A stretch of DNA of 43,605 nucleotides from Blastocatellia bacterium (GTDB lineage: Bacteria; Acidobacteriota; Blastocatellia; Chloracidobacteriales; JADJPF01), in contig JANWYG010000001.1 of assembly GCA_025057015.1 (NCBI GenBank), positions 1 through 43,605 on the forward strand, written 5' to 3'. Shown in pieces: positions 16,081 through 20,435 of the stretch. The stretch's first letter is position 1, and each line of letters starts with the position of its first letter. The translations under genes were made by a program, and so were the position numbers. The notes below the pieces were generated by a model. It did no database searches. It was not told where the DNA came from and saw only the letters and a list, made by a program, of their open reading frames with translations.

Positions 16081-17172
16081 TTGTTGGGTTCGGTAGCAGT
16101 GAAGGTGATCATAGCTGGTGGTGGTACAGGAGGCCACATATATCCGGGAATAGCCGTGGCTAGGGAGTTCAGGCGCCGCAATGCTGATAGCGAGATAACT
16201 TTTGTAGGTACGGCACAGGGATTAGAGACTAAGATAGTACCTCGTGAAGGATTTCGCTTGGAGTTGATAAAGATAGCTGGGCTTAAGAACGTTTCATTGC
16301 TAAGTCGACTGAGGACTCTGCTGATGTTACCGGGTAGTTTTTTACAAGCTCGTTCTCTGATAAAGCGACTTATGCCGGACATAGTAATAGGTGTAGGTGG
16401 ATATTCTTCTGGCCCAGTCGTATTAGCGGCGTCGCTGATGGGGCTACCGACCATGGTCATAGAGCCTAACGCTCTTCCGGGCTTTACTAACAGAATGCTT
16501 GCCTCTTTTATAGACAGGGCTGCGGTGACGTTCGAAGTCTCGAAGAGGTATTTTCGCGGCAAGGCAGTGGTGACGGGAAATCCTGTAAGGCCTGAGTTTT
16601 ATGCTCTGACGAAGAAGCAACGGACGGAAATGTTTCACTTGCTCGTTTTTGGAGGTTCGCAAGGTGCTCATGCGATCAATCTCGCTATGCTAGAAGCTGT
16701 GAGGCTACTTTCTGACGAGAAGCATAGGTTGACGATTACGCATCAGACTGGAGAAAAGGATCTTCAGATGGTAAAAGCTGGCTATGAGCAAGCTGGTTGG
16801 ACGGTTGACGTAAGGCCGTTTTTGCACGAAATGGCATCAGAATTCGAGCGTGCTGACATAGTGATATCTAGAGCAGGAGCAACTACTGTGGCAGAGCTAA
16901 CTGCTGCCGGTAAAGCAGCAATACTGGTGCCTTTTCCTTATGCTGCAGATGATCATCAACGCAAGAATGCTGAGACACTGCAAGCTGCTGGTGCTGCAAG
17001 AATGATCCTGCAACAGCAGCTAAATGGCGAGCGTTTGGCAAGCGAAGTGAAGTCGCTTATGGCTAATCCGCAGCAGATAGATGACATGGAAGCAGCTGCG
17101 CGCCGACTAGCGAAGCCTGATGCTGCTGCAGCGACGGTAGAGCTGGCCTTAGGACTTTTAAAAGGTGTGTGA
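16081..17172 (+). CDS. murG: UDP-GlcNAc:lipid I GlcNAc transferase MurG
   Basis: MurG adds GlcNAc to lipid I to form lipid II on the cytoplasmic membrane face. The 363-residue protein has the N-terminal [11 protein letters not shown] donor/acceptor loop (13-23), [30 protein letters not shown], and the [31 protein letters not shown] block. The start is unusual. Two consecutive TTG codons (16081, 16084) follow the ftsW stop, with GGTGGAG just upstream placed best for the second one. GTG 16099 is an alternative with a poorer site. The stop overlaps the murC start region. Confidence 0.96.
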
Positions 17173-18536
17173 TGTTTAAGCGGATTCAGCATATCCATTT
17201 TGTAGGAATAGGTGGTGTAGGGATGAGTGGCATAGCCGAAGTGCTACTTAACCTTGGCTATAAGGTGAGTGGCTCAGACATTAAGCTTTCGCCAGTGACA
17301 GAGCGGTTAGCTGGGTTAGGTGGGCAGATATTTGAGGGTCATAGGGCAGAGAATATTTGCGGTGCAGATGTTGTCGTAATCTCTTCTGCTGTAAAGATGG
17401 ATAATCCTGAGGTAGTAGCTGCCAATAGCCATCAGATACCGGTAATTCCTCGGGCGGAGATGCTCGCCGAGCTGATGCGGCTCAAGTATGGTATTGCCGT
17501 TGCTGGAGCGCATGGTAAGACTTCTACGACCTCGATGATAGGCCATATGCTGAACTTCGCTGGTTTAGATCCTACGATAGTGGTAGGAGGACGCGTAGGT
17601 GCTCTTGGTAGCAATGCCAAGCTTGGTCGTGGCGAGTTTATGGTAGTTGAGGCTGACGAAAGTGATGGATCTTTTCTAAAACTTTCTCCAGCCATAGCTG
17701 TGGTGACGAATATTGATAGGGAACATCTGGACTATTACGGCAGCTTGGAAGAATTGTGCAACCACTTTGCTAACTTCGCAAACAAGGTACCGTTTTATGG
17801 AAGCATAGTGCTTTGTCTTGATGATACCAACGCGCAATCAATCATACCGCAGATCAAGCGACGGCTTATAACCTACGGGCTGCAGAGTCAATCGGACGTA
17901 CTAGCTACAGCGGTGGAAATGACGGCTAATTTTGGCTCTCGCTTTGAGGTTAAGTTTCAAGGTCGGCGTTGTGGGATGGTAGAGCTTCATGTACCCGGTA
18001 TGCATAGTGTGTATAACGCTCTTGCCTCGATTGCTGTCGGACTCGATTTGGAAATAGAGTTTTCTACTATAGCTGAGGCGTTGGCAGAATTTCGCGGCGT
18101 AGACCGTCGTTTTCAAATTAAGGGAGAGCTAGCAGGCGTACTTGTAGTAGACGATTACGGTCATCATCCGGCAGAGATTCGAGCGACGCTGCGTGCTGCG
18201 CAAGCTGCTGGTCGCAGAGTGGTAGTAGTGTTTCAGCCTCACAGGTATTCGCGCACGAGCTTGCTTATGAACGATTTTGCTCGTTCGTTTTATGATGCGA
18301 ACGTAGTGCGCATCTGTGACATTTATCCTGCTGGGGAAGAGCCTATTGAAGGAGTTTCGTCTCGAAATCTAGCGCTACTTATCGAGCGCTATGGGCACAA
18401 GGATGTCAAGTATGTAGGTAGTTTAGCAGAAGCTGTAGCAGCAGTTAGGCAGCTGCTACAGCCAGGAGATCTGCTGCTTACACTTGGTGCTGGCAACGTC
18501 TGGCAGGTAGGAGAAGAGTTGCTCAAGGGAGCTTAG
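17172..18536 (+). CDS. murC: UDP-MurNAc:L-alanine ligase MurC
   Basis: MurC starts the stem peptide by adding L-alanine to UDP-MurNAc. The protein of about 454 residues has the [15 protein letters not shown]-binding motif near the N-terminus, the P-loop GAHGKTST (near 112-119), [34 protein letters not shown], and FQPHRYSRT. These clearly mark MurC rather than Mpl. I chose ATG 17172, which forms TGATG with the murG stop and has AAAAGG upstream. GTG 17169 would add one residue. Confidence 0.95.
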
Positions 18537-18539
18537 GTT

Positions 18540-19391
18540 ATGGTTGAGGCCGTCGAGCGAATTTGTAAAAAACTCGGGGTCTTGGTCAGGTATGGCCAGC
18601 TGATGCGGTTTCACACGGCCGTAGGCGTAGGTGGTGAGATAGACTGCATAGCTTATCCTTGCGACTATGCGACGGCAGCACGGCTTGTGGCTGAACTAGA
18701 AAGTGCCGCAGTAGATTGGCGTGTTCTTGGTGCTGGCTCGAGGTTGCTTGTAGCAGACCTACCGATAGCTAGAACGGCTGTGAGTCTCAAATTGATAGAA
18801 GAGATGATGCTGTTTGATGGCGAGAAGGTTAGGGTTCCTGCTGGCTATAGGGTAGCTGCGATAGCTGCTGCTACGATCGAGCGAGGTTTAGCTGGCCTAG
18901 AGAAGCTAGGATATTCTGTTGGTACGGTTGGGGGAGCTTTACGACGGCAAGATACAGCCGAAGGGAGGATACTTGCTTCGCTGGTAAATAAGGTGATTGT
19001 AGCTCGTAATGGGCGTTTAGTGGAGCTTGATGCGACGGAGGTTGTGTTTGAAAGGGAGTCACTATTACTTGGCTGTGAATTACAGCTTCGGAGGGTAAAA
19101 AGAAAGCGAAGACTAGTTCGTAACAAGCTTCACTTGAGGGGCCGACCTTGGGCGGTATCCGGACCAGTTTTTTTGAATTCTGCCGGTTGGCCAGCGGCAG
19201 AACTCTTGCTGAAGGCCGGGCTCAAGGGTAGCAGAAGAGGGGGAGTTAGGCTTGCTCCTTGGAACTGTGCTTTTCTGGTGAATGACGGAACGGCTACTGC
19301 ACGGGATATCGAGTTGTTAATAGATGATGTTATTTCTGAGACTGACCGCAGGCTAGGCCAAAGGCCTATTGTAGCACTTGAGAGGTGGTAG
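18540..19391 (+). CDS. murB: MurB-like protein with degenerate catalytic motifs
   Basis: MurB normally reduces UDP-GlcNAc-enolpyruvate to UDP-MurNAc using FAD and NADPH. This 283-residue homologue keeps the fold signature: HTAVGVGG (25-32), VLGAGSRLLV (62-71), GLAGLEKLGYSVGTVGGA (116-133), and AELLLKAGLKG with FLVNDGTATARD in the C-terminal domain. Key residues are altered. The GSxFKNP loop reads GPVFLN (208-213), so the catalytic serine is P209. The FAD-loop NAGAYG after GGA is replaced by RRQDTAEG. The YRxS motif is at best ERES (171-174). The C-terminus ends LERW, without the usual acidic continuation. It sits in the normal dcw position between murC and ftsQ with a good ribosome binding site (AAGGGAG). 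It may be an inactive structural or regulatory remnant, or a strongly diverged enzyme. Confidence 0.82.
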   Translation: MVEAVERICKKLGVLVRYGQLMRFHTAVGVGGEIDCIAYPCDYATAARLVAELESAAVDWRVLGAGSRLLVADLPIARTAVSLKLIEEMMLFDGEKVRVPAGYRVAAIAAATIERGLAGLEKLGYSVGTVGGALRRQDTAEGRILASLVNKVIVARNGRLVELDATEVVFERESLLLGCELQLRRVKRKRRLVRNKLHLRGRPWAVSGPVFLNSAGWPAAELLLKAGLKGSRRGGVRLAPWNCAFLVNDGTATARDIELLIDDVISETDRRLGQRPIVALERW

Positions 19392-19394
19392 CAA

Positions 19395-20435
19395 ATGCGT
19401 GGAGTAACGGCTGAGCGAAGGTCTGTTTTTAAGCAGAAGGTTATCAAGAGGAAGAGCGCGTCGGGGAAAGTGACGAGGGAGAGGCTTTTGTCGTATCTCT
19501 GGGTTGCAGTTGCTGGCTTAGTGCTTTTCGGAGTTGTGATAGGTATCATTTCTGCTTATCGAGTAGTAGTTAGGTCTGAGGTATTTCGTCTAAGCAGCAT
19601 AGAAATCACCGGCGTACGCCGGGTAAGTATTCAGGACGTGGAGCGTCTGTTACGAGAGAGTGCCACGGATCCGCTAATTTTTGCTGATCTTGGAAAGATG
19701 AGGAAGGTTTTGGAGCAGATGCCTTGGATCAAGCGAGCATATTTGACGCGCGTCTTACCTGATAAATTGCGAGTGAAGGTAGAAGAGCGAGTTCCGTTTA
19801 TGCTTGTCAAGATAGGCAGCAAGCTTTTTTGGGTAGACGACTGTGCCGTAGTGCTTGGTGAGTTTGATATGACGGCTGATAAGGACGTACCGCCTGTAGT
19901 GACAGGTTTTAGTGCTAAGCCTGATGAAATCTCTAGAGCCGAGGACTTGGAGCGGATAGCCACTTATAAGAACATACTTTGGGCGCTTGACAGTGGGACT
20001 ACCAAGTACTTGTCGCAGGTAGAAGAGATAGATCTGACGAATCTGAAGGACGTGCGGATTACTGTTGTGCAGGGTTTGGGTGAGCATCCTGTAGAAATAG
20101 CTTTAGGACATCGGGATTTCAGAGCGAGGGTAGCTTTAGCTATGGATATATTGGACGCTCTAAGGACTCGGGATTCTGCTAGGCTTCGCAACTATCAGGT
20201 ACTAGATCCACAGGTTTTAAGTAATCCGGAGTTAATAACTTTTATCAGCGTAGTTCATCCTGCGCAGATAGCAATTAAACTGGCAAGAAAGCCTGTAGAC
20301 TCCGAGCGAGCTGATTTTGCTGAGAGGCGCACTGAGAAAGCGATGCAAGTAGCTAGTTTAGTCAAAACTCGTGGCGTTTCTGCATTGCAGCAGAAGACAG
20401 CTACGCCTACTAGGCCGAGGAGGGTGGAGGAATGA
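19395..20435 (+). CDS. ftsQ: Cell division protein FtsQ
   Basis: FtsQ is a bitopic divisome protein that recruits FtsL/FtsB. The 346-residue protein has a very basic cytoplasmic N-terminus (1-30), one transmembrane helix (about 31-54), a POTRA domain (about 65-135, from FRLSSIEITGVRRVS to LPDKLRVKVEERVP), and an FtsQ beta domain beginning LFWVDDCAVVLGEF. The C-terminal tail (about 290-346) is charged and likely disordered. GAGAGGTGG precedes the ATG. The gene lies 3 bp after murB and 3 bp before ftsA. Confidence 0.93.
   Translation: MRGVTAERRSVFKQKVIKRKSASGKVTRERLLSYLWVAVAGLVLFGVVIGIISAYRVVVRSEVFRLSSIEITGVRRVSIQDVERLLRESATDPLIFADLGKMRKVLEQMPWIKRAYLTRVLPDKLRVKVEERVPFMLVKIGSKLFWVDDCAVVLGEFDMTADKDVPPVVTGFSAKPDEISRAEDLERIATYKNILWALDSGTTKYLSQVEEIDLTNLKDVRITVVQGLGEHPVEIALGHRDFRARVALAMDILDALRTRDSARLRNYQVLDPQVLSNPELITFISVVHPAQIAIKLARKPVDSERADFAERRTEKAMQVASLVKTRGVSALQQKTATPTRPRRVEE

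Follow-up and report, generated by a model that had tools for sequence, protein, structure and literature searches.

A degenerate MurB homologue kept between murC and ftsQ in a family of Blastocatellia whose genomes encode a second, intact MurB

MurB is commonly studied as an enzyme and a drug target. The position of murB in the dcw cluster of B. subtilis is reportedly important, as Real and Henriques are said to have found in 2006 (cited in PMC8871954). In type IIb MurBs, exemplified by the Thermus caldophilus protein (PDB 2gqt), the proton donor is a cysteine (PMC3689657). In the P. aeruginosa enzyme the nicotinamide is held by residues taken here as the equivalents of E. coli Ser229 and Glu325, and the nicotinamide ribose by those taken as the equivalents of Tyr125 and Arg159 (PMC3689657); a Ser229Ala mutant of E. 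coli MurB has been crystallised with its substrate (1uxy). In Verrucomicrobium spinosum MurB is physically tied to MurC as a fusion protein (PMC4803751, PMC12283558), and Caulobacter MurB localises like other Mur enzymes, as reported in PMC6420597. CwlM in mycobacteria and EnvC in E. coli illustrate how peptidoglycan enzymes can have degenerate relatives that are retained as regulators (PMC4946905). LucY, considered as a potentially inactive MurB, was rejected, being described as a fluorescent but ordinary MurB homologue (PMC4408115). The open-licence papers searched yielded no description of a catalytically dead dcw MurB or other MurB pseudoenzyme, no demonstrated non-catalytic role for MurB and nothing on MurB in Chloracidobacterium.

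The window analysed here is a stretch of 43,605 nucleotides from a Blastocatellia bacterium (contig JANWYG010000001.1). It contains a murB-like open reading frame that starts with ATG, is preceded by GGGAG and is separated by three bases from the murC stop (18536) and by three bases from the ftsQ ATG (19395), within a run of open reading frames that extends on into apparent ftsA and ftsZ genes. The features discussed below are as follows.

17169..18536, plus strand: murC, immediately 5' of the dcw murB (three Mur ligase domains)
18540..19391, plus strand: putative MurB pseudoenzyme of 283 aa, dcw-located and of type IIb descent (Pfam PF02873 at 3.4e-11 and PF01565 at 9e-8; tree; dN/dS 0.149 in a close pair of degenerate relatives)
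18735..18743, plus strand: G66-S67-R68, the GxGS phosphate-binding loop retained, with Asn51 replaced by Arg (alignment; GxGS present in all four degenerate copies of the family)
18948..18965, plus strand: QDTAEG (residues 137-142) at the position of the FAD/substrate loop N-x-G-A-Y-G (alignment)
19050..19055, plus strand: junction Glu171-Arg172, site of the YRxS deletion (E. coli Tyr158-Arg159-x-Ser161; alignment)
19164..19166, plus strand: codon CCA, Pro209 at the proton-donor position (Ser229 in E. coli, Cys in the sister family; alignment)
19374..19376, plus strand: codon GCA, Ala279 at the position of catalytic Glu325 (alignment)
19395..20435, plus strand: ftsQ, immediately 3' of the dcw murB (FtsQ-type POTRA domain, 2.4e-16)

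Between genera of the family ftsQ diverges about as fast as the degenerate murB (35% identity between the window genome, G000, and G002), and low identity alone is thus no sign of decay in this operon. The murB/ftsQ junction is tighter in G002 (L073 3789-3798) and G003 (L084 2069-2078) than in the window, the first possible ftsQ start lying about 10 bases inside the end of the degenerate murB.

An earlier note on this DNA had recognised a MurB homologue in its normal slot between murC and ftsQ, and both the flanking genes and the domain matches confirm that assignment. The protein scores 43.6 bits against MurB_C (PF02873, cut-off 27) and 32.3 bits against FAD_binding_4 (PF01565, cut-off 26.4), and the solved structures related to it by sequence are MurBs without exception. 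It shares family, domains, length class and operon position with the T. caldophilus enzyme and with the intact dcw MurB of a sister family and, like type IIb MurBs, has neither the type I tyrosine loop nor the extra fold. Predicted models, built from only five sequences, have moderate confidence, with a pLDDT of 66.6 compared with 70.5 for an intact orthologue at equal depth. Foldseek and VIA-align rank MurBs first for the modelled protein (Z 16-17 over approximately 260 residues), although with an rmsd near 15 Å, so the domain arrangement in the model is unreliable; residues 1-208 fit FAD-domain folds at approximately 3 Å. Domains, tree (see below) and operon position agree on membership of the MurB family by descent. 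The features expected of an active MurB, namely a Ser or Cys donor, Glu325, the YRxS motif with Arg159 and a score above the NCBIfam equivalog cut-offs, are all missing, the last by a wide margin (119.3 of 259 bits for NF010480 and 75.5 of 144.5 for TIGR00179). Descent thus makes the protein a MurB, but its residues are not those of a MurB enzyme.

The active site was compared in an alignment of the window protein with E. coli MurB and 32 other MurBs of the same class. The donor loop, GSFFKNP in E. coli, reads GPVFLNS, which places Pro209 at the position of Ser229; NIGAYG has become QDTAEG; the equivalent of Glu325 is Ala279; and GxGSN has become GxGSR, with Arg68 in place of Asn51. The earlier note, reading the sequence by itself, had proposed a Ser-to-Pro change in the GSxFKNP loop, replacement of the NAGAYG FAD loop and a missing acidic residue near the C-terminus, and the alignment with known MurBs that it called for bears out all three, the proline being present in four of four family members. 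It was also right that the YRxS motif is lost, but what it took for ‘ERES' is a deletion of about seven columns at Glu171-Arg172 that removes Tyr158-Arg159-x-Ser161. The equivalents of Ser/Cys229, Glu325, Arg159 and Tyr125, which are needed for both half-reactions, are therefore absent together. As the residues for nicotinamide and ribose contact and the proton donor are missing, both half-reactions should be impaired or lost, and the protein is predicted to lack MurB activity. The loss of donor, Glu325, Arg159 and the NAGAYG loop sets it apart from type IIb MurBs, to which its ancestor would have belonged: the ancestral donor of the dcw copy was probably Cys, as the donor loop is SAGC(I/M)FKNP in the sister family's intact dcw MurBs. 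Chance or sequencing error does not account for these changes because Pro209 and Ala279 are common to three other, independently assembled genomes of the family.

Catalysis is probably provided for elsewhere. The genome (3.33 Mb, 97% complete) contains one further MurB_C gene, on contig 6 (G000:C6), which answers the earlier suggestion to search for a second canonical MurB: it encodes a type I protein of 353 aa in which all motifs are intact (GSFFINP, YRSS, QNVGAYG and the final Glu). Every one of the four family genomes, which come from three genera, shows this two-gene state of a degenerate dcw copy and an intact type I gene. The type I genes cluster in the tree with type I genes from other families, and in each of the four genomes the gene follows a dus gene; this shared adjacency rules out contamination as the origin of the type I gene and argues against four separate gains.

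The four dcw copies of the family, each located between murC and ftsQ, form one clade (support 100/99) inside the type IIb/dcw clade, and in all of them Pro occupies the donor position and Ala replaces Glu325. In the sister family the Cys donor and Glu325 are present in 10 of 10 genomes, where the dcw MurB, unlike that in the window, is the only MurB. Since the family copies form a single clade sharing Pro209 and Ala279 while the sister family is intact, the loss of the catalytic residues most simply preceded the last common ancestor of the family and hence its diversification. The named relatives are Blastocatellia or Acidobacteria MAGs (JACQZQ01, JAEUQL01, JAHFUF01 and JAIBAN01). In one sister-family genus (g6; L010, L011 and L013) murC is only about 50% identical to that of G004, G005 and G012 from the same family, the adjacent murB genes being 63-69% identical; the murC of this genus may have been replaced or have sped up.

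Of 162 genomes in the class, only six encode two full MurBs: the four family members, G016 and G018. None of the 162 was seen to have two intact MurBs. In G016 the copy between murC and ftsQ has Gly at the donor position and Gly for Glu325, in G018 it has Arg and Asp, respectively; both have lost Arg159, and both genomes encode an intact MurB elsewhere. The exact placement of these two copies is not settled by the tree, but as the genomes belong to other families and the substitutions differ, they likely represent losses apart from that described here. Second matches in G062 and G073 were dropped, as under a stricter model they are not MurBs. Clean loss is frequent: the junction was examined in 29 genomes, and in 23 of them ftsQ comes directly after murC, with no dcw murB, and a type I MurB is encoded elsewhere (L074-L100). 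The dcw murB has thus been cleanly lost again and again in this class. In a phylum-wide sample nearly all of the best dcw-like matches outside two-copy genomes retain the catalytic residues, and viral contigs yielded no relative.

These deletions raise the question of whether the degenerate copy is a slowly decaying relic of the type I takeover, heading for the same fate. The faster evolution of the degenerate copies points in this direction: relative to murC, divergence is 2.1-5.7-fold between degenerate family members and 0.56-1.59-fold between intact copies, which indicates that constraint has changed and is partly relaxed. Selection could be estimated from one MAG pair of a single genus (G002 and G003), all other degenerate pairs being saturated at synonymous sites and so left out; the set includes no close relative of the window genus, which sits on a long branch (1.55). 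In this pair pairwise maximum likelihood gave a dN/dS of 0.149 (dS 1.16; bootstrap 0.09-0.20; likelihood ratio against dN/dS = 1 of approximately 102), with values below 0.18 in each of the three domains. The dN of 0.174 matches the value for the active type I genes of the same two genomes (0.175), which have a higher dS (2.11). Approximately 10 in-frame stops would be expected under neutral drift over the distance between G002 and G003, yet the frames are open in four of four genomes and have been so since before the family ancestor. These data show that the degenerate dcw MurB is under purifying selection in this one pair, so that the protein has been kept after catalytic loss; they agree with the earlier judgement that a gene with an open frame and a good ribosome binding site is not simply decaying, and they make a relic unlikely. 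The three-base junctions on both sides would also suit a frame preserved solely for the sake of the DNA or of translation, whether as a spacer for coupling or because it contains an ftsQ promoter. Selection at the amino-acid level, together with the existence of relatives in which murC is joined directly to ftsQ, renders this explanation very improbable.

The distribution of conserved positions bears on what is being selected. Of the positions that never vary among the intact sister copies, those kept by all four degenerate copies number 25 of 42 in domain 1, but only 12 of 52 in domain 2 and 9 of 46 in domain 3 (21 of 98 together; P = 2e-5 for domain 1 versus the rest, with sites not strictly independent and domain limits approximate and set by us). 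For comparison, a single intact MurB of a less closely related family keeps 27 of 42, 34 of 52 and 38 of 46, respectively. Between genera the constraint on domain 1 is therefore comparable to that in a functional enzyme, which is not true of the other domains, and this hints that domain 1 may be the seat of the retained function; the bias is absent in the young pair G002/G003 and not clear in G018. The protein might, alternatively, still be an enzyme, of weak or changed chemistry, that binds FAD and uses a different proton donor to turn over a related substrate. The FAD-domain motifs GxGS (64-67) and GTVG (128-131) are retained in the window protein and in all four family copies, the FAD_binding_4 match is significant and the predicted FAD-domain fold over residues 1-208 would accommodate such a role. 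The substrate domain, however, is among the least conserved between genera, and the residues that contact nicotinamide and substrate (PMC3689657) are lost together. No Ser or Cys in the donor loop is conserved among the four copies; Ser207, which adjoins the donor position, was rejected as a compensating residue, being Val or Thr in relatives. We consider continued catalysis quite unlikely, and the new variant with different chemistry that the earlier note had offered as one option finds little room, both half-reaction residue sets having gone.

The other option in that note, that the protein is inactive but has been retained because it serves a different role, is favoured by the residue losses, the second MurB and the dN/dS of 0.149, and the protein is likely a pseudoenzyme preserved for some function other than catalysis. 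Under this explanation, two MurBs would have been present in the family ancestor: an active type IIb enzyme with a Cys donor, encoded in the dcw cluster, and a type I enzyme, encoded next to dus, which, as we infer, took over the reduction of UDP-GlcNAc-enolpyruvate. The dcw copy would then have lost its donor, Glu325, Arg159 and flavin-site loop before the family diversified, and a folded protein would have been retained under purifying selection, tightly encoded between murC and ftsQ. The reason for its retention may be that it, and perhaps chiefly its N-terminal domain, helps to hold MurC or other cytoplasmic Mur/divisome proteins together. The V. spinosum fusion makes contact between MurB and MurC plausible by analogy, although that protein is a working, essential enzyme whereas the window MurB is separate and degenerate. 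Together with the localisation of Caulobacter MurB and the precedent of CwlM and EnvC, it makes a scaffold or regulatory role plausible; CwlM and EnvC, which may work in a like manner, come from an unrelated family (amidase or hydrolase relatives), and their regulatory action was shown by experiment, that of the window protein being inferred. A scaffold specifically is a tentative proposal, to which we give slightly less than an even chance. The role would be dispensable in the longer term, since the dcw copy has disappeared altogether from most relatives that have a type I MurB.

The wider possibility is that MurB has a second function in the dcw operon that is separable from catalysis, as a platform for MurC or the divisome, and that several acidobacterial lineages have split it off while catalysis moved to another MurB; the case for this is suggestive, falling somewhat short of even. 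Automatic annotation would label the degenerate dcw gene an active MurB, which calls for caution. Nature has in effect run a separation-of-function experiment in the lineages where catalysis has moved and a dead copy is kept between murC and ftsQ. These lineages suggest that the MurB protein has a structural or regulatory role, and make testable the old question of why murB adjoins murC and ftsQ.
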